The notes beneath the pieces are model-generated. The model saw only the letters and a program-made list of their open reading frames with translations. It was not told the DNA's origin and made no database searches. The position numbers and the translations under genes are program-made. A stretch of 48,172 nucleotides of DNA, from assembly GCA_030524585.1 (NCBI GenBank), contig JAUNGJ010000001.1, forward strand, positions 79,984-128,155, written 5' to 3'. The DNA is from Eubacteriales bacterium. GTDB taxonomy: Bacteria > Bacillota > Clostridia > Lachnospirales > Lachnospiraceae. Positions 7,501 through 15,402 of this stretch are shown here, piece by piece; the first letter of the stretch is position 1; each line of letters opens with the position of its first letter.

Positions 7501-9961
7501 GGCGGCATTTACGGATGAAGCGGCTCCTTTGGAGGAAGCAAACCTCCAGGTGGCATATCAGGCAGCGCTGGAGGGAATTGTACTGCTTGAAAATGATGGC
7601 TGTCTTCCGGTAAAGCCTGGCAGAATTGCGCTGTACGGTGCGGGAGCGGATATGACTATTAAGGGGGGAACCGGATCCGGCGAGGTGAACGGGCGTCATG
7701 CGGTTTCCATTCTGGAGGGACTTACGAAGAGTGGGTTTACAGTGACCAGCAGACCGTGGATCGATGAGTACCGGTGCCTCTATGAGCAGGCAGAAGCGGA
7801 ATATAGGACGGAATTAAAAAAGAAAATGCTCCATGCGAATCCGGTAAATATGCTGGATATTGTGAGTCCATTTGCCATGCCTTATGGTCAGCCGGTTACC
7901 GATGAAGAGATTCTGGCTGCCAGTGCGGACACCTGTATTTATGTGGTGGCAAGACAGGCGGGAGAGGGAGCGGACCGGAAGCTGGATAATGGAGATTATT
8001 CACTGTCTGATGTTGAAAAATGCAGCATTGCGCTGTGTGCGGAGCGCTTTGAGAAGATGATCGTAGTCATCAATGTGGGCGCATCCTTCGATATGAGTTT
8101 CCTGGATGAGATTTCGGGAATCAATGCGGTTGTGTTTTTGGGTCAGCAGGGAGCCATGGGCGGCCAGGCATTTGCGGATCTTCTGACGGGTAAGGTGACA
8201 CCGTCCGGGAAGCTGACGGATACCTGGGCACGTCGGTATGAGGATTATCCGAATGCTATGGCATACAGCTTCCTAAACGGTGAACTGGATGAAGAATTTT
8301 ATGAAGAGGGTATTTATGTGGGCTACCGGTACTTTGACAGCTATGGAGTCGAGCCGAAATATCCTTTTGGCTATGGATTGTCCTATACAGAGTTTGAGAT
8401 TGAGACGAAGGCCGTTTCTGTAGAAAAGTCCGTCGCAGAAGCATGTGTGTCGGTGACCAACACAGGAAACTGTGCGGGAAAAGAGACGGTGCAGATCTAT
8501 GTCAGCAGCCCGCAGGATGGAATTCATAAGGAATACCAGAGGCTTGCGGCATTTGCCAAGACAAGGACACTGGAGCCGGGAGAAGAAGAGGTGCTGAAGC
8601 TGAGCTTTGATATGGCGTCTCTTGCAAGCTACCGTATGGAGGATGCGGCGACGGTACTGGAGCAGGGAACGTATCTGATTCGTATCGGTAATTCCAGCCG
8701 GAATACGACGGCGCAGGCAGCGCTGGTTCTGGATGAGGAAGCGGTTGTTTCCAGACACTGCCATATCTGTGAGAACGGGACTATAGAAGAGATGGCGCCT
8801 CCGGTACCCGCAGAGGAAGTGGAGTCAGAGGAGACGGTAAGAATTCCGGTATGTGCAAAGGATATTCCCTGTGAGATTTACGACTATCAGACGCCGGAGG
8901 TATATCAATCCCCAGAGACGGATGCATTTTTGGATTGGATGAGTCTGGAGGAAATGGCGGCGCTTACAGTGGGAGAAGGGATGTCCGGCGAACGGTTTTT
9001 TGAGGCGCCCGGTTCGGCAGGTTCCACCACAGTAAAGCTTCTGGATATTGGGATTCCGAATGTGTCTCTTGCAGACGGCCCGGCAGGTCTCAGACTTCAG
9101 AAACGTACCGCGGTAATGAGGAATGGCAAGCTGAAGGCAGTAGATCCCAACATAGAAATGTTCAAATATTTTCCGGAAACGGTAAAGAAGCTGATGTTCG
9201 CCGATCCGGATAAGCATCCGGTAGTTTATCAGTTCACCACCGCATTTCCGGTTGGTCTTGCCCTTGCCCAGACCTGGAATCCGGAACTGATCGAAAAAGT
9301 AGGAGAAGCTGTGGGAGAAGAGATGAAGGCTTATGGTGTGACCTACTGGCTGGCGCCGGCGCTGAACATTCACAGGAATCCGCTGTGCGGAAGAAACTTT
9401 GAATACTATTCGGAGGATCCGTACCTATCCGGTGTATTTGCGGCGGCAATGACCAGAGGGGTGCAGAAGAACCGGGGCTGCTATGTGACGATCAAGCATT
9501 ACTGCTGCAATAATCAGGAGGATAACCGCAATCAGACCAATGCGAACGTCAGCGAGAGAGCCCTCCGTGAGATCTACCTGAAAGGCTTTGAAATTGCCGT
9601 AAAGGAGGCCCGCCCGGGAGCTGTCATGAGCAGTTATAACAAGGTGAACGGCGAGTATGTTAATAACAGCTATGATCTGCTGACCAAGGTGCTTCGAAAT
9701 GAATGGGGATTTGACGGGCTGGTTATGACAGATTGGTTTGCAACCGGCAAAAACAGAGGCAGCCATGTGTTTGCAATCGAGGCGGGAAATGACCTGATCA
9801 TGCCGGGGAGCAAAGGAACTGTGAAAGAAATCATAAGGGCTGTAGATGAAGGAGTGATTCAGGAAGAGGATGTGAAGCGCTGCGCGGCCAATGTGCTGAA
9901 AGGGATATTGTCTTCACGAATTTATCAGGGATACAGGAAATTGAGAAAAAACAATCAATAA
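7478..9961 (+). CDS. Glycoside hydrolase family 3 protein, domain-permuted
   Basis: About 827 residues. The domain order is permuted relative to most GH3 enzymes: the alpha/beta sandwich comes first (LLENDGCLPV, GGTGSGEVN, DTCIYVVARQAGEGADR, WARRYEDYP), then a fibronectin-III-like module (VSVTNTGNCAGKETVQIYV), then the TIM barrel (LADGPAGLR, NIHRNPLCGRNFEYYSEDP, KHYCCNNQEDNR, VMTDWFA). The aspartate in MTDW, near residue 752, is the expected nucleophile. Permuted GH3 beta-glucosidases are known in ruminal and gut clostridia. No signal peptide is seen, so it probably acts on imported oligosaccharides. ATG 7478 follows AAAGGTG at 7459-7465; the frame extends upstream to ATG 7451. It overlaps the phosphoesterase gene by 23 bp. 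Confidence 0.92.
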   Translation: MKMRVRNKAAFTDEAAPLEEANLQVAYQAALEGIVLLENDGCLPVKPGRIALYGAGADMTIKGGTGSGEVNGRHAVSILEGLTKSGFTVTSRPWIDEYRCLYEQAEAEYRTELKKKMLHANPVNMLDIVSPFAMPYGQPVTDEEILAASADTCIYVVARQAGEGADRKLDNGDYSLSDVEKCSIALCAERFEKMIVVINVGASFDMSFLDEISGINAVVFLGQQGAMGGQAFADLLTGKVTPSGKLTDTWARRYEDYPNAMAYSFLNGELDEEFYEEGIYVGYRYFDSYGVEPKYPFGYGLSYTEFEIETKAVSVEKSVAEACVSVTNTGNCAGKETVQIYVSSPQDGIHKEYQRLAAFAKTRTLEPGEEEVLKLSFDMASLASYRMEDAATVLEQGTYLIRIGNSSRNTTAQAALVLDEEAVVSRHCHICENGTIEEMAPPVPAEEVESEETVRIPVCAKDIPCEIYDYQTPEVYQSPETDAFLDWMSLEEMAALTVGEGMSGERFFEAPGSAGSTTVKLLDIGIPNVSLADGPAGLRLQKRTAVMRNGKLKAVDPNIEMFKYFPETVKKLMFADPDKHPVVYQFTTAFPVGLALAQTWNPELIEKVGEAVGEEMKAYGVTYWLAPALNIHRNPLCGRNFEYYSEDPYLSGVFAAAMTRGVQKNRGCYVTIKHYCCNNQEDNRNQTNANVSERALREIYLKGFEIAVKEARPGAVMSSYNKVNGEYVNNSYDLLTKVLRNEWGFDGLVMTDWFATGKNRGSHVFAIEAGNDLIMPGSKGTVKEIIRAVDEGVIQEEDVKRCAANVLKGILSSRIYQGYRKLRKNNQ

Positions 9962-9966
9962 AGGAG

Positions 9967-9995
9967 TTGCACATAACTAACCCTTATGGTAGACT
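9967..9995 (+). promoter_or_regulatory. Candidate promoter with Fur-like site downstream
   Basis: TTGCAC 9967-9972 and TAGACT 9990-9995 are 17 bp apart. TATAAT at 9995-10000 overlaps but is too far from this -35. Just downstream lies TGAGAATCGATTTCA (10007-10021), an imperfect 7-1-7 inverted repeat loosely like a Fur/PerR-type box. Both are weak calls. Confidence 0.4.
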
Positions 9996-10045
9996 ATAAT
10001 TGCAAATGAGAATCGATTTCAAAATTGTAATATGGAGATATAGAT

Positions 10046-10327
10046 ATGAGTGTTGTGATTATAGGTGGAAATGAATGTATGGAATGCCAGTACAAGCAAA
10101 TCTGCAAAAAACATAAGTGTAAGGCAAAAGTATTTACAAAGATGAAAGGCAACCTGAAGGAACAGATTGGAAAACCGGATCTGATTATTCTGTTTACAGG
10201 AACAACGGCGCATAAGATGGTGCACTGTGCAATCAAGGAAGCGCAGCGCCATGATGTCAGAGTTGAGAGATCTCACAGCAGCAGCGCCAACGCCCTGAAC
10301 CGGATACTCAGTGAATGCTGCGGCTAA
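10046..10327 (+). CDS. DUF2325 small protein
   Basis: A 93-residue protein matching the DUF2325 pattern: an N-terminal SVVIIGGNE strand, a cysteine/basic stretch (CMECQYKQICKKHKC), KPDLIILFTGTTAHKMVH and a final SHSSSANALNRIL. The family function is not established. The fold looks like a small Rossmann-type domain. The C-x2-C-x5-C-x4-C arrangement near the N-terminus (CMECQYKQICKKHKC) could bind a metal, which is inference. It is monocistronic: a possible promoter and Fur-like site lie upstream and a strong terminator follows. GGAG at 10034-10037 precedes ATG 10046. Confidence 0.8.
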   Translation: MSVVIIGGNECMECQYKQICKKHKCKAKVFTKMKGNLKEQIGKPDLIILFTGTTAHKMVHCAIKEAQRHDVRVERSHSSSANALNRILSECCG

Positions 10328-10353
10328 TTACTCCTTTGTGATAAATCATTATG

Positions 10354-10388
10354 AAAAAGACATATCCGCTTTTGGATATGTCTTTTTT
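10354..10388 (+). terminator. Strong terminator after DUF2325 gene
   Basis: AAAAAGACATATCC (10354-10367) pairs with GGATATGTCTTTTT around a 6-base loop, ending in TTTTTT. It separates the DUF2325 gene from the ThyX cassette. Confidence 0.93.
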
Positions 10389-10403
10389 ATGTTACGATAA
10401 ACA

Positions 10404-10432
10404 TTGAAAATTCAGATGACGTAAGATATACT
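10404..10432 (+). promoter_or_regulatory. Promoter of the ThyX/PRTase/HIT-DHFR cassette
   Basis: TTGAAA (10404-10409) and TATACT (10427-10432) are separated by exactly 17 bp. They lie directly after a terminator and 45 bp before the first gene. Confidence 0.75.
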
Positions 10433-10476
10433 TATGTAGAAAGAAATGTAAGGACAAATGAAATAAGGAGAACTAT

Positions 10477-11868
10477 ATGGTACAGAGCTCAGTAAAAATA
10501 CTGTTTTATAACGAAAATGCTGATAGTATAGTGGCATCAGCGGGAAGGATTTCTACTACAAAAGGCAGTGCAAATGAAATATATAAAAAATCCTTAGAAA
10601 GGAATGAAATAGAAAATATTAATTTAATTCAAAAAATATTAGCATCTGGACATACGTCCGTGTTAGAGCACGTTTTTTTGAATCTGGCATTTGATAATGT
10701 ATCTGTATTTGTCGAACAGTTTATGATTGAATTTAGATTGGCTTCGTTTACAGTTAAGTCCAGGCGATATGTTGATTTTGGAAATATGGGTTTCGTTATG
10801 CCTGAATTCAGTAAATATGGGGAAAGGGCCGATGGAATGAAAGAAATCTATCAGCGGCACATGAAATATTTATTTCAGGAATATAATGATTTACTTGATA
10901 AGGGAATCCCAAAGGAAGATGCCAGATTTGTTCTTCCATACTCATTTCGAAGTAATTTTTACTGTACTGTGAATGCGAGAGAGTTAATAAAAATAGTTAA
11001 TGAGATGGTCTGGGGAAGAGGAAAGGAATATCCGGAAATTGTTTCACTTGGTAAATCGCTGATTGAACAATGTAAAAAAAAGATACCATTTTTAAATCTG
11101 CATGAAGGACATAACCCGAAAAAGATATATGATATTAGTTTAATGGAAAGAAAAAAAGCTGTAGATTTGAAAGAGAATGAGGGGGAACCGGTGGTTTTAC
11201 TGAACGCTACAGAACATCCGGAAGAAACCATATGTAAGGCGGTAATGCTGACGGAAGGATATGCGGATTGGCAGTCTGCCGAGGTGAAAGATTCTGATAC
11301 ACAGAAGGCGATCCTTAAAAGTGTTTTACTTAATTCAAGAAAAAGGGAGTTAGAGCAGGTTAACTTTACGATATTGTTCCAGCATATATCTTTGGCGGGA
11401 GTTACTCATCTTGTACGGCATAGAATGCAATCTATTATTGTGCCTAAATATTATAATATCTGTGAGTTTGATAAATATATTGTACCTGAAAGTATTGTGA
11501 ATGCCGGTATGAAAGAAAAATATGAGAGGGTGTTCCGGGAATCGCATAAGGTGGCAGAACAATTACGGGAAGAGGGATTGGAATGCAGTGATCAGATATA
11601 TTTGCTGCTTAGTGGCCTGACGGTGCCTGTTATGACTACAATGAATGCAAATGAACTGTTTACATTTCTTCGATTAAGAAGCTGTAACAGAGCACAGTGG
11701 GAGATTGCGCATTATGCCAAAGCACTGTTAAAGATTCTAAGAAAACAATATCCGGTACTGTTTTCACTATATGGTCCTACCTGTTATGTGACGGGGAAAT
11801 GTCCGGAAGGAAAGATGTCATGTGGGCAGATGAAAGAAGTGAAAGCTTCATTTGCTATGGATGAATAA
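10477..11868 (+). CDS. Double-domain (tandem) ThyX-like flavin-dependent thymidylate synthase
   Basis: A 463-residue protein containing two ThyX-like halves; ordinary ThyX is about 220-250 residues. First half: GHTSVLEH (58-65), the signature region EFRLASFTVKSRRY (85-98) and NAREL (166-170). Second half: RHRMQSIIVPKYYN (314-327), NANEL (390-394) and LRLRSCNRAQWEI (398-410), plus a C-terminal cysteine segment (C436, C442, C449). The canonical signature is RHRxxSxNExSxRY. The first half keeps RxxS and SxRY but has EF for RH; the second keeps RHRxxS but loses the rest. ThyX methylates dUMP using methylene-THF, NADPH and FAD. Whether this protein does so is inferred. It starts after AAGGAG at 10464-10469 and is AT-richer than its flanks. 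Confidence 0.85.
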   Translation: MVQSSVKILFYNENADSIVASAGRISTTKGSANEIYKKSLERNEIENINLIQKILASGHTSVLEHVFLNLAFDNVSVFVEQFMIEFRLASFTVKSRRYVDFGNMGFVMPEFSKYGERADGMKEIYQRHMKYLFQEYNDLLDKGIPKEDARFVLPYSFRSNFYCTVNARELIKIVNEMVWGRGKEYPEIVSLGKSLIEQCKKKIPFLNLHEGHNPKKIYDISLMERKKAVDLKENEGEPVVLLNATEHPEETICKAVMLTEGYADWQSAEVKDSDTQKAILKSVLLNSRKRELEQVNFTILFQHISLAGVTHLVRHRMQSIIVPKYYNICEFDKYIVPESIVNAGMKEKYERVFRESHKVAEQLREEGLECSDQIYLLLSGLTVPVMTTMNANELFTFLRLRSCNRAQWEIAHYAKALLKILRKQYPVLFSLYGPTCYVTGKCPEGKMSCGQMKEVKASFAMDE

Positions 11869-11889
11869 AACGGGAGTATACGTAAAGAA

Positions 11890-12990
11890 ATGGAAATAAA
11901 ATGGAAGCGGAATAAGCAAGAATGGATATTGGATACGATACATTGCTTTGTTCTAATATTTTGCCTGGGTTATACATTCCGTGCAGTTATATGTGTTGAC
12001 CGGGAACTTTTCCATGGGCATTTTTTCGCTGATTTGAAGGATGCATTTTTAAATGCCGGTATTAATGAAATTTTCACATTTATAGGCGCGGTAGGTTTTG
12101 TCCTGTTTGGTATTGTTGGTATATATGAATTTGCTTATTTGAATGGACTATGGCCGCTGGTTCCGCCAACTTTTGCTCACATAAAAGATAAAAACTATGA
12201 AAAACAAGCCGAAAAAATGATGAAGATATATTATGAAAATGATATAGAATTTATCCGGGAATATGAGAAAGAAAGATTGGATTATGCGCTTCAGGCAGCA
12301 GGAATCGACGAAGCACAGTTTCGGCATATAAAATATGAACTGATAAAGGCCCGGTCTATGTCAGTGAGTACGGTGGATGAACTCAGGAAAAAGGCGGAAT
12401 GTATACTGTATGATAAAAGATTTATTGTGGATCAGACTCTTTATGAGCCGACTGAGCGGGTATATAAGGAGGTTGATTATTTTATTAACTTGTATACGGC
12501 ATTTTATGCGCCGCAGCTGTGTGCTGATGCAGGTCAGATTATGGCGAATTATATTGTGATGGTCATGGGAAAGCAGGCTGATGCTTTGGATTATATTATT
12601 ATCCCACATGACAGTAATTTGTTGTTAGGCTTAGAAGTGGGAAAAATTTTGCGTAAACCAGTTGTTGCTATTCAGGATAAAGAACGAATTCACAAGTATG
12701 AATTTTGGGATGGAGACTATAATAAAAACAGGTCGTCTAATAATAAAAATAAAGTTATTATTATTCATGATGTTCTGGTAACAGGCAGAAGAATTTATGA
12801 AAGTGTTGAGAGATTGCCGCAGGGTACATATGAAGTAGAAGGTTTGTATTGTCTTTTTAAGTACGTACATGAAGAATATCATCCGGAGAAAATATTACAA
12901 GAACATAATATCTGCAATATTAACTGTCTTATAGATACGGATGAAGAGACTTTGAAAAAAATATATAAGGACAATGGAAAGGAAAGCTGA
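11890..12990 (+). CDS. Two-TM protein with a phosphoribosyltransferase-like domain
   Basis: I do not recognise a named family for this 366-residue protein. Residues about 13-36 and 61-80 are hydrophobic and probably span the membrane. A charged, helical middle follows (about 100-200). The C-terminal part looks like a type I phosphoribosyltransferase: ALDYIIIPHDSNLLLGLEVGKILRKPVVAIQDK (about 232-264, written here in pieces: IIIPHDSNLLLGLE and KILRKPVVAIQDK) and the PRPP-loop-like VIIIHDVLVTGRRIYES (289-305). The usual acidic pair of the PRPP loop is H293-D294 here. The gene lies 21 bp after the double ThyX and 3 bp before the HIT-DHFR gene, so it is in one operon with nucleotide enzymes. Its substrate is unknown. 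Confidence 0.7.
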   Translation: MEIKWKRNKQEWILDTIHCFVLIFCLGYTFRAVICVDRELFHGHFFADLKDAFLNAGINEIFTFIGAVGFVLFGIVGIYEFAYLNGLWPLVPPTFAHIKDKNYEKQAEKMMKIYYENDIEFIREYEKERLDYALQAAGIDEAQFRHIKYELIKARSMSVSTVDELRKKAECILYDKRFIVDQTLYEPTERVYKEVDYFINLYTAFYAPQLCADAGQIMANYIVMVMGKQADALDYIIIPHDSNLLLGLEVGKILRKPVVAIQDKERIHKYEFWDGDYNKNRSSNNKNKVIIIHDVLVTGRRIYESVERLPQGTYEVEGLYCLFKYVHEEYHPEKILQEHNICNINCLIDTDEETLKKIYKDNGKES

Positions 12991-12993
12991 TTT

Positions 12994-14157
12994 ATGAAAT
13001 GTGACTTTTGCGATGAGCGGAAAGGAATAGAAACAGTATATAATAAAATATATGGAAACAGATGCAGGGTTGTGTATGAAACAGAACACTTTTCAGTTTT
13101 CCCATGTATGGGTCAGTTAAGGGAAGGACATCTATTGGCTGCCTGTAAAGAACATATGAATGCAATAGGGAATTTAAAGGAAGAGGTACTGGAAGAGCTG
13201 GAGAATCTGATTCTGCTTGTTAGTAGATTTTATAAAAGAGTGTATGATATGAATCTCCTGTGTTTTGAACATGGGGTACTGAGCGATGATGGAAGTAATG
13301 GAGGATGTGGGATTTACCATATGCATCTTCATTTGCTTCCGGTAAAAGAAAATGAGTTCAGAGCATTATTAGAGAAGCTGAAGAACCAAAAAACCAATAA
13401 AGTTCATTTGGTTCAGGGGTTGGCAGACACTTGTCAGTATATTGAAGAAAAAAAGACATATGTTTATTTGGAACAGATCGATAGGAAGCAGAAGAAGGAA
13501 ATGTATATTGTCAGCAGCAGTGAAAATTATTTTGAATCCCAATATATGCGGCGGATGATCTGTGAAGTGTTTCATAATAATGAATGGAACTGGAGGAAGG
13601 TGAATTATGAAGAGCCGGAATTCCTCAAAACATTAGAAATGAGTAAACGTTTTTTTCAAAAGCAAATGAATATTATCGTAGCAGTAGATAAAAACTGGGC
13701 TATTGGCAAGAATAACCGGCTGATGTGGAGCATTCCGGCGGATATGAAGTTCTTCAGGGAGACCACAAAGGGGAATATCGTCATTATGGGAAGGAAGACT
13801 TTGGAGAGCTTTCCCCAGAGTCAGCCGCTGAAGAACCGGGTGAATATTGTGATCACAAGGAATGCAAACTACAAAGTGAAAGACGCGGTGGTTGTTCACA
13901 GTGTAGAAGAGGCCCTGGAGGAATGCAGAAAATATGAAGGGGACGTTTATGTAATTGGCGGCGAGAGTATTTACCGCGCCATGCTGCCATACTGTGACAA
14001 GGCGTTGGTGACCAGGATCGACCATGCCTATGATGCGGATACCTATTTCCCGAATCTGGACAAAGATCCGGAATGGAGGATGACGAAGATCAGCGAGGAG
14101 CAGACCTGTTTTGATCTGGAGTATTATTTTACCGTATATGAGCGGATATCAAAATAG
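12994..14157 (+). CDS. HIT-domain/dihydrofolate reductase fusion
   Basis: A 387-residue fusion. Residues about 1-125 are a histidine-triad domain with an N-terminal CDFC, and the triad H109-x-H111-x-H113 followed by LLPV. A linker region of about 100 residues of unclear fold follows. Residues 225-387 are a complete dihydrofolate reductase: MNIIVAVDKNWAIGKNNRLM, D250 in IPADMKFF, IVIMGRKTLESFP, NIVITRN, VYVIGGESIYRAML. HIT proteins hydrolyse or transfer nucleotidyl groups; DHFR makes tetrahydrofolate. M225 is the natural start of a stand-alone folA, but no ribosome site precedes it. The codons before about 13666 are AT-rich and those after are like the neighbouring genes, suggesting a join of two sources. 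Confidence 0.88.
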   Translation: MKCDFCDERKGIETVYNKIYGNRCRVVYETEHFSVFPCMGQLREGHLLAACKEHMNAIGNLKEEVLEELENLILLVSRFYKRVYDMNLLCFEHGVLSDDGSNGGCGIYHMHLHLLPVKENEFRALLEKLKNQKTNKVHLVQGLADTCQYIEEKKTYVYLEQIDRKQKKEMYIVSSSENYFESQYMRRMICEVFHNNEWNWRKVNYEEPEFLKTLEMSKRFFQKQMNIIVAVDKNWAIGKNNRLMWSIPADMKFFRETTKGNIVIMGRKTLESFPQSQPLKNRVNIVITRNANYKVKDAVVVHSVEEALEECRKYEGDVYVIGGESIYRAMLPYCDKALVTRIDHAYDADTYFPNLDKDPEWRMTKISEEQTCFDLEYYFTVYERISK

Positions 14158-14184
14158 AAAGTAACAGAAAGAGTAAAAGGAATT

Positions 14185-15402
14185 ATGAGAATATTAACGA
14201 TTACGGCCCAGAAACCAAACAGTACAGGCAGCGGATTCTATCTGACGGAGATGGTAAAGAGCTTTGCTGCCCAGGAACATGAGCAGGCGGTCCTTGCAGG
14301 AGTGTATAAGGAGGATACGGTGGAGTTTCCGGAAGGCGTGCGCTTTTATCCGGTATATTTTAAGACGGAAGAGCTTCCTTTTCCGATTGCGGGAATGTCT
14401 GATGAGATGCCCTATGAGAGTACGGTGTACGGGCAGATGACAGATGAGATGGTGGAGCAGTTTAAGGCCGCGTTCCGAAGGGCGATCCGGGAAGCGGCAA
14501 AGGATTTCCGGCCGGATCTTGTCGTGTGTCACCATCTGTATCTGGTAACGTCAATTGCCAGAGAAGAGCTGGCGGATTATAAGGTGTGCGGATTCTGCCA
14601 TAATACGGACCTGCGCCAGATGAAGAAGATCCCTCTGGAAAGAGAGTACATTCGTAGTCAGATTCCCGAACTGAATGGAATCTTTGCCCTGCATGAGGAG
14701 CAGAAAAAGGAAATTATGGAGATATATCCGGTGAATGCGGATAAGATTACGGTTGCGGGTACCGGATATAATTCAGCCGTATTTTACAGAGAAAAAGAAG
14801 CTTCCTCCGAGGGGGAGGACAGGCAGAAACAGGGAGAGAAACCGTTTCGCCTGATCTATGCAGGAAAGATTGCAGAGAAGAAGGGTGTGGCGAGCCTGAT
14901 CAAGAGCCTGGACTATCTGCCGTGGAAGCGGGAAGAACTGGAGGTCTTTCTGGCAGGCGGCGCTGGAAATCAGAAGGAGTATGATTGGATCTGCAGACTA
15001 GCCGAAGAATGCAGGTATCCGGTTCATTTCCTTGGAAAACTGTCCCAGAAGAAGCTTGCGAAGGAATATAACAAAAGCGATGTTTTTGTGCTGCCATCCT
15101 TTAGCGAAGGGCTTCCGCTGACGATCATGGAGGCTATGGCCTGTGGGTGTGAGGTGATTGTGACCGATCTTCCGGGAATCCGTCCATGGACAGAGGCTAA
15201 TGTAGAGTGTGCTCCGATCCTGTTTGTAGAGCCGCCCAGAATGCAGAATGCAGATGAACCACTTCCGGAGAGCCTGGAACAGTTTGAACGAAAGCTTGCA
15301 GATGCGATTGTGGCATGTGCCGGGATGCCCTATGAAGGTCAGCCGGATTTGAGCAGAGTGTCCTGGGGAAATATCTGTGATATGGTGCTGGCTGATAATT
15401 AA
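14185..15402 (+). CDS. GT4-type glycosyltransferase
   Basis: A 405-residue GT-B-fold glycosyltransferase. The N-terminal half holds the acceptor domain (MRILTITAQKPNSTGSGFY with the glycine turn). The C-terminal half holds the sugar-nucleotide domain: RLIYAGKIAEKKGVASLIKSL, VHFLGKLSQKKLAKEY, and SDVFVLPSFSEGLPLTIMEAMACGCEVI, containing the E-x7-E motif region (EGLPLTIMEA) of GT4 enzymes. It would transfer a sugar from an activated donor to an unknown acceptor at the cytoplasmic face. It begins 27 bp after the DHFR gene with AAAGGA at 14177-14182 and no terminator between, so it may be read through from there. The sugar and product cannot be deduced. Confidence 0.85.
   Translation: MRILTITAQKPNSTGSGFYLTEMVKSFAAQEHEQAVLAGVYKEDTVEFPEGVRFYPVYFKTEELPFPIAGMSDEMPYESTVYGQMTDEMVEQFKAAFRRAIREAAKDFRPDLVVCHHLYLVTSIAREELADYKVCGFCHNTDLRQMKKIPLEREYIRSQIPELNGIFALHEEQKKEIMEIYPVNADKITVAGTGYNSAVFYREKEASSEGEDRQKQGEKPFRLIYAGKIAEKKGVASLIKSLDYLPWKREELEVFLAGGAGNQKEYDWICRLAEECRYPVHFLGKLSQKKLAKEYNKSDVFVLPSFSEGLPLTIMEAMACGCEVIVTDLPGIRPWTEANVECAPILFVEPPRMQNADEPLPESLEQFERKLADAIVACAGMPYEGQPDLSRVSWGNICDMVLADN

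Follow-up and report, generated by a model that had tools for sequence, protein, structure and literature searches.

Our comparative data suggest that an acquired gene cassette in Eubacteriales bacterium (assembly GCA_030524585.1, contig JAUNGJ010000001.1) is a non-orthologous replacement of the thymidylate synthase gene thyA, and that its first gene, thyX2, encodes a tandem, two-domain ThyX which would act as the thymidylate (dTMP)-making synthase; we put the probability of this reading at about 0.78. ThyX is unrelated to ThyA, and the tandem ThyX is the only recognisable thymidylate synthase of this genome. Its gene is followed by genes for a membrane phosphoribosyltransferase (PRTase)-like protein and for a HIT protein, the latter joined to folA, the gene of dihydrofolate reductase (DHFR). 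All coordinates (Table 1) are those of the 48,172-nt stretch of DNA that was analysed, here called the window. Labels beginning with G denote genomes and those beginning with L denote loci; the genome of the window is G000, and L002 stands for Lachnospiraceae bacterium 3-1.

Probable replacement of thyA beside folA

The window was compared with the thyA loci of the eight congeners that have a full-length thyA and with those of two other members of the family, G015 and G012. In all eight congeners thyA stands directly before folA and the same glycosyltransferase gene follows, while ilvB belongs to the same neighbourhood in seven of them (the eighth locus, L006, gives no ilvB match in the 3.7 kb remaining on its contig). 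G015 has the gene order of the congeners, and G012 gave no match to any of these neighbours. Nucleotide homology (blastn) on the right-hand side starts at 13662-13666, at the DHFR start codon, in nine of the ten loci (L021 gave no match), and on the left-hand side it stops at 10293-10330, where the DUF2325 gene ends, in the six loci that match this gene. The window therefore resembles the thyA-folA pair of its relatives in place, in the resident folA and in the downstream genes, but it carries thyX2, the PRTase-like gene and the HIT gene instead of thyA, and folA is joined to the HIT gene.

Since thyA precedes folA here in 8/8 congeners and the genome of the window (2.8 Mb, 115 contigs, 92% complete) has no match to ThyA (PF00303), the cassette appears to have replaced thyA. 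The same ThyA search in ten congeners found the eight full-length genes, a fragment at a contig end in G001 and nothing in G002. No second ThyX was found in the genome of the window beside thyX2, and its sole DHFR match is the folA of the cassette locus. Furthermore, no thyA match was found in any of the five tandem-ThyX genomes tested (own, L002, where the ThyA search gave no match, G397, G362 and G241). The original prediction, made from the letters of the window, had proposed a horizontally acquired module that may replace thyA next to folA; the eight congeners with a full-length thyA bear this out, as they carry thyA-folA in this place and not the three-gene cassette.

Base composition changes at the same border. 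The G+C content is 0.34-0.39 in the cassette genes and 0.44-0.51 in the flanking genes, and at third codon positions it amounts to 0.28-0.38 over the cassette including the HIT part. Within the third open reading frame (ORF) the third-position value steps up from 0.375 in the HIT part to 0.610 in the DHFR part; an AT-rich block up to about 13666 had been predicted, and the computed values place this step at the DHFR start codon. Because both homology and composition step at this codon, the acquired HIT gene seems to have been joined to the resident folA: the insertion would have fused the two genes, giving a HIT-DHFR protein, and the DHFR part is, on this evidence, resident folA and not cassette material. 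No evident ribosome-binding site was found ahead of the old DHFR start. The fusion had been listed as a part of the module, which did not hold, given the separate HIT gene of L002 and the start of congener homology. We also considered the HIT-DHFR protein as an ancient multi-domain enzyme; the free HIT in L002 and the composition step inside the ORF led us to reject this. The locus would then present a thyA replacement caught in the act, with the insertion exactly at the folA start codon and the foreign composition still visible, in a genus where most examined members retain thyA.

The locus most similar to the window is that of the congener G004, with the order GH3-thyA-folA. Between thyA and folA of this locus (L010, 8910-9190) lies a long inverted repeat which resembles a miniature inverted-repeat transposable element; at least 60 nt of it match its reverse complement exactly.

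Division of the catalytic residues between the halves of the tandem ThyX

The predicted double ThyX was confirmed: two stretches of thyX2 match Pfam Thy1 (PF02511; 248.3 bits against a curated cut-off of 24.8, E 6e-74), and the protein also matches the TIGR02170 thyX model (176.7 bits against 87.9). Residues are numbered with a Thermotoga (Tm) ThyX stretch as a ruler. The N half keeps S95, R97, Y98, R150 and R168 (Tm S88, R90, Y91, R147 and R165), and E85, F86 and M177 replace Tm R78, H79 and R174. The C half keeps R314-H315-R316 and R401 (Tm R78-H79-R80 and R174) as well as Q407-W408-E409; Tm R90 and R147 are lost there and Tm S88 is changed to K. The RHR-x7-S motif is thus incomplete in each half, with RHR in the C half only and Ser88/Arg90 in the N half only, so that neither domain taken singly is an ordinary ThyX, and R78, H79, R80, S88, R90, Y91, R147, R165 and R174 are all present once both halves are counted.

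We extended the residue count to the halves of ten tandem proteins and to 48 single ThyX, all aligned to the Thermotoga ruler. The N halves have Ser88, Arg90, Tyr91 and Arg147 in 10/10 and Arg165 in 9/10 cases, and none has Arg78 or Arg174. Conversely, Arg78, His79, Arg80, Arg174, Gln180 and Trp181 are present in all ten C halves, Arg165 in four, Ser88 in two, and Arg90 and Arg147 in none. Arg78, Arg80, Ser88, Arg90, Arg147, Arg165 and Arg174 occur in 48/48 single ThyX. The Tyr91 column is unstable in the C halves (Tyr in 5/10 beside gaps in one alignment, 0/6 in another) and was left unused. According to these alignments, the catalytic residues are divided between the halves of the tandem ThyX.

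In the excerpts of PMC6514825, the site of the M. tuberculosis ThyX is composed of the RHR motif (Arg95-97) and Arg199 from subunit A, of Ser105, Arg107 and Tyr108 from subunit C, and of Ser71 and Arg190 from subunit B. We set the Thermotoga equivalents by a constant offset (Arg199=Arg174, Ser105=Ser88, Arg107=Arg90, Tyr108=Tyr91 and Arg190=Arg165). Ser88 and the strictly conserved Arg182 of the PBCV-1 ThyX sit on different monomers (excerpts of PMC3498832), and catalytic parts have been assigned to Arg174, Ser88, Arg90 and Tyr91 of ThyX (excerpts of PMC8316439). The tandem halves would fit these subunit roles, the C half that of A and the N half that of C, and the N half probably takes the role of B too. 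Because the residue sets of the two halves come from different subunits in the known tetramers, we infer that the tandem is a fixed hetero-enzyme in which, for every four domains, two sites are live and two are dead.

In the mechanism that we propose, two chains would form a four-domain core resembling the ThyX homotetramer, and the enzyme would convert deoxyuridylate to dTMP with FAD, NADPH and methylene-tetrahydrofolate. A live site would take RHR and Arg174 from a C half (A role) and Ser88/Arg90/Tyr91 from an N half (C role), and Arg165, the flavin phosphate contact (B role), would likewise be supplied by an N half; a site made of one C half together with the two N halves would fit the uneven occurrence of Arg165 (9/10 N against 4/10 C halves). 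The single-domain homotetrameric ThyX (TIGR02170, PF02511) is alike in its Thy1 domains, and the residue set of its site is complete over the whole tandem chain. In contrast to it, the tandem has two domains per chain and a predicted two live sites instead of four, and neither tandem half could build a full site from copies of itself.

One could argue that the tandem ThyX is a paralogue that is decaying or has a regulatory role, in a cell that lives on thymidine salvage, since both halves are without residues invariant in 48 ordinary ThyX, and since ThyX without R78, R80 and R147 in thyA-less genomes of the family implies that such a loss is tolerated somewhere. However, the losses are complementary and identical in 10/10 tandems, the frames are intact and the motifs conserved, and random decay is disfavoured because one full residue set has been spared. 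We regard this explanation as highly improbable.

Distribution and origin of the tandem ThyX

The tandem profile matches 40 of 397 genomes of the same family, and in four of them the matched range and the length of the frame show a tandem (G000, G397, G362 and G241, the last as one 454-aa frame matched in two pieces). Of 186 genomes of the class 85 match the profile, with G000, G931 and G886 as the tandems among the matches listed. G931 belongs to another family and has a 459-aa ORF, of which 442 residues were translated; the G886 tandem is divergent (440 aa) and lies near a thymidylate-kinase-like gene. Two Bacillus plasmids were examined among 23 matching plasmid records, and both carry a tandem ThyX (L054, 5533-7251, and L055, 5557-7254; replicon cluster 1042; 565-572 aa) with a similar residue partition, annotated merely as FAD-dependent thymidylate synthase. 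The tandem thyX of G397 overlaps folA. The G+C content of the tandem gene differs by no more than 0.05 from that of its surroundings in G397 (0.409 against 0.410), G362 (0.571 against 0.560), G241 (0.276 against 0.326) and L002 (0.428 against 0.406), in contrast to the window.

A tree of 75 rows, which included six tandems and the Bacillus pair, left out G931 and G886 and gave long-branch warnings, united the six N halves in one clade (100/100) and the six C halves in another (100/99). This is consistent with an origin of the six tandems from one old fusion. The C halves of the Bacillus pair join the C clade at 89/92, below the mark taken as firm, and this pair may have a separate origin.

No support for a phage origin of the cassette came from the following searches. 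As single queries, the tandem ThyX, the PRTase-like protein and the HIT protein found no relative among viral contigs. A ThyX profile scan gave 42 viral loci, and none of the seven examined by domain search is a tandem; among the viral ORFs listed, L116 alone exceeds 330 aa, being a single ThyX with an insert. This 554-aa ORF has an intein-like insert of about 290 residues between two domain parts. In the phage collection 659 records match the tandem ThyX, and the best of them, the one that was opened, looks bacterial. This record, MT835736.1 (L053), is filed as 'Bacteriophage sp.' and carries a tandem ThyX next to MltG-like, U32 peptidase-like and thymidylate kinase-like genes (names read from translations). 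At E 1e-10 the L055 protein matched nothing in the phage collection.

We also noted a clade of same-family single-domain ThyX in which Tm Arg78 is changed to Thr, Arg80 to Ile or Leu and Arg147 to Ala, with Ser88, Arg90, Tyr91 and Arg174 retained. It comprises L015 (4559-5236, minus strand), L017 (6124-6807, minus strand), L016, L029, L030, L034, L037, L039 and L043. Of eight of these nine genomes tested together, six gave no ThyA match, one a full match and one a partial match.

Several points weigh against the replacement of thyA by a tandem ThyX with a divided site. The assemblies are incomplete (own 92%, G362 84%), so that thyA could have been missed, and the congener G002, 90% complete, matches neither thyA nor thyX. 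Of the 66 non-tandem rows, 18 are left out of the 48/48 count because of a ruler E >1e-14; they include the two Bacillus tandems and the clade without R78, R80 and R147. The C halves were cut at RHR, which has its sole occurrence in the second half, and finding it there is in part a result of the cutting; two C halves, counted above, retain Ser88. Two of the ten tandems are the near-identical Bacillus plasmid proteins, whose motif is RHNR and where Arg80 is scored through an alignment gap only, and the alignment of G886 is less certain. Additionally, the Bacillus N halves fall outside the N-half clade, on a very long branch.

Relation to earlier work

A duplicated ThyX of Chloroflexi was reported as uncharacterised by Valas and Bourne (2009; excerpts of PMC3224940); these passages are silent on residues. 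In the literature on tandem, fused or duplicated ThyX, as far as excerpts and mostly non-subscription papers go, we found no description of the residue partition, and the excerpts of a review (PMC5954106) and of a paper on ThyX evolution (PMC10733785) hold no mention of a tandem or fused ThyX. What appears to be new here is the residue partition, the ThyX duplication itself being already in print. ThyX is a drug target with sites between three subunits, and because of this arrangement one mutation in the homotetramer strikes four sites and all subunit roles. If our reading is true, linked halves with divided roles would let each subunit role be mutated separately, and the tandem ThyX would tell if an enzyme can do with half of its sites.

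The three-gene module in a second genome

In 84,980 species genomes a pattern scan for the PRTase-like protein, which requires exact short peptide matches and would let remote relatives escape, yielded one relative (one of six stretches), in L002. The order there is the same, with a tandem thyX (64% identity, BLAST), a PRTase-like gene (66-70%) and a HIT gene (61-62%) that ends without DHFR, and the module lies at another locus, 3' of a 5-formyltetrahydrofolate cyclo-ligase-like gene (name read from the translation). At 8588-10390 of L002 a transposase gene, of IS110 type as read from its translation, splits the PRTase-like gene, and the tandem thyX and HIT frames stay open. The G+C content of L002 is 0.344 in the PRTase piece and 0.302 in the HIT gene against 0.406 in the surroundings; the tandem thyX is not AT-richer. 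The PRTase-like and HIT genes look foreign in both places, because they are AT-richer than their surroundings at both. In protein searches of 98 and of 398 genomes with the PRTase-like protein, the own genome was in both cases the one that matched. The original prediction invited a search for the three genes as a unit: they do occur together once more, with the HIT unfused and the PRTase interrupted.

The PRTase-like and HIT proteins

Hydrophobic stretches near residues 17-36 and 58-82 are found in both homologues (window and L002), and they uphold the membrane part of the predicted "membrane PRTase-like protein"; its PRTase label comes from weak matches and a low-confidence model. Pfam gave no family match, the pyrE model gave E 8e-5 with 22.5 bits, far under its cut-off of 106.8, and the sequence match to orotate phosphoribosyltransferase (OPRT) among solved structures has E 1.2. 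The structure model has a pLDDT of 50 and its best Foldseek match is OPRT (E 7e-4), the one match of 731 with E <=0.001; the best 50 of the 731 are mostly named PRTases, the rest being PurR (2), HP1257 (2) and an E. coli structural-genomics protein (2). The phosphoribosyl pyrophosphate (PRPP) motif of type I PRTases has two acidic residues followed by TG. The loop reads VIIIHDVLVTG in the window and VIIVHDVLVTG in the other homologue, and two acids with TG are not found; a transferase activity is doubtful because the first acid is His in both. Compared with PyrE and the type I PRTases, to which the C-terminal domain has its best sequence and fold matches, the protein adds two membrane helices at the N terminus and a long helical linker and differs by the His in the PRPP loop. 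It had no match in phages or plasmids, and no PADLOC model matches it.

The HIT part matches Pfam HIT (26.1 bits against 21.5), DcpS_C (29.7 against 24) and phrog_23000 (residues 3-204, E 1e-9), its closest solved structures are HIT proteins, and the HMHLH triad is conserved in both homologues; its model has a pLDDT of 48. The HxHxH triad is common to HIT proteins (HINT/HIT hydrolases, DcpS-like), and phrog_23000 spans both triad and tail. In contrast to these proteins, the HIT of the window has an extra C-terminal tail, which finishes NEWNWRK, and is fused to DHFR here and free in L002. We presume a likeness of this tail to the C-terminal region of CwfJ, the Pfam match to CwfJ_C_1 lying under the cut-off (19.6 bits). 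The HIT profile is generic (359/397 genomes) and, among the matches listed, full-length only in the own genome (477 bits; next 41). For phrog_23000, 30/378 genomes match, and the single other open frame with a match reaching the tail is L124. This HIT protein of the same phylum (L124, 1341-1934) has a tail of the form SQ..RR....EWDWR, resembling that of the window (local score 52 against 21.2 +- 3.7 for shuffled sequences, 0/500 as high), and its gene sits between ThiL-like and phosphotransferase-like genes (names read from translations), a context unlike the window. The HIT part had no match in phages and a weak one in PADLOC (ThsC, E 0.003).

Possible roles of the accessory genes

No PRTase or HIT match lies in the 19-20 kb around the tandem thyX of G397, G362 and G241, or in the shorter stretches around those of G931 and G886. 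The PRTase-like and HIT genes therefore look like accessory genes that would not be required for tandem-ThyX function in general. The two could together serve nucleotide salvage or clean-up alongside the thymidylate synthesis of the cassette, where the OPRT-like membrane protein would form a pyrimidine nucleotide and the HIT protein would hydrolyse nucleotidyl conjugates or by-products. OPRT is the nearest match in sequence and fold, the HIT triad is intact, and in two genomes the PRTase-like and HIT genes come after thyX2 in this order. However, these are two genomes only, with the PRTase gene split in one of them, the His in the PRPP loop makes transferase activity doubtful, and the OPRT match and both structure models are poor by the values given above; we hold this role as tentative. 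About equally likely is that the two genes are hitchhikers, or a stress or defence pair, carried along by a mobile cassette and playing no part in dTMP synthesis. The rarity of the PRTase, its two-helix membrane anchor, the interruption tolerated in strain 3-1 and the AT-richness of both genes in L002 too speak for this, and the same order and tight spacing at both places, the lack of a PADLOC model for the PRTase-like protein and the weak ThsC match of the HIT part speak against it. A literature search for a bacterial operon pairing a HIT domain or CwfJ with a phosphoribosyltransferase found nothing.

The original prediction had also offered a modified pyrimidine nucleotide as the product. 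Such a nucleotide might serve DNA modification or go into a nucleoside natural product; ThyX would then be the C5 transferase, and the PRTase-like and HIT proteins would be tailoring enzymes. PRTase and HIT domains do act on nucleotides. Thymidylate synthases do act in nucleoside antibiotics and modified phage nucleotides (excerpts of PMC9931769). Nevertheless, the own genome would be left without a recognisable thymidylate synthase, the three ORFs fill the insert with no kinase, nucleotide glycosyltransferase or DNA-modification gene inside, and three thyA-less genomes (G397, G362 and G241) have a tandem ThyX with no PRTase or HIT match nearby. The proposal found no support and we consider it very unlikely. 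Rather improbable, too, is a wider picture in which tandem ThyX forms a class of thymidylate synthase of its own that has spread horizontally, an obligate pseudo-heterotetramer which has given up half of its sites, and in which the two-helix PRTase and the HIT-DHFR of this lineage would tether it to the membrane as a channelled pyrimidine-folate complex.

Layout of the locus

Three tightly spaced genes behind a promoter and a terminator had been predicted. The intergenic gaps between the three plus-strand ORFs are indeed 21 nt and then 3 nt. The promoter-like site at 10404-10432 is present but at chance level (1 found against 1.1 expected), and an Rfam search of 9900-14500 for riboswitches gave 0 matches. 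The hairpin at 10345-10400 was not on the list of the pattern scans; RNA folding supports it, with a run of T behind it, -22.5 kcal/mol, z -7.9 and 0/200 shuffles as low.

Table 1. Coordinates of the cassette, its genes and its borders in the window
Feature	Position	Strand	Basis or remark
Hairpin, terminator-like	10345..10400	+	3' of DUF2325 gene, left edge of AT-rich block
AT-rich insert without DNA homology to congeners	10331..13665	.	Occupies thyA position; blastn
thyX2, tandem two-domain ThyX, 463 aa	10477..11868	+	Thy1 twice; TIGR02170
thyX2, N half	10477..11121	+	Alignments
thyX2, C half	11122..11868	+	Alignments
Membrane PRTase-like protein, 366 aa	11890..12990	+	Weak sequence matches, fold search, hydrophobicity
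HIT + DHFR ORF, 387 aa	12994..14157	+	Pfam HIT/DcpS_C and DHFR_1
HIT part, HMHLH triad, C-terminal tail ending ESQYMRRMICEVFHNNEWNWRK	12994..13665	+	Pfam HIT, DcpS_C; phrog_23000; L002 homologue
Apparent resident folA (DHFR), in frame with the HIT gene, the junction being the former folA start codon	13666..14157	+

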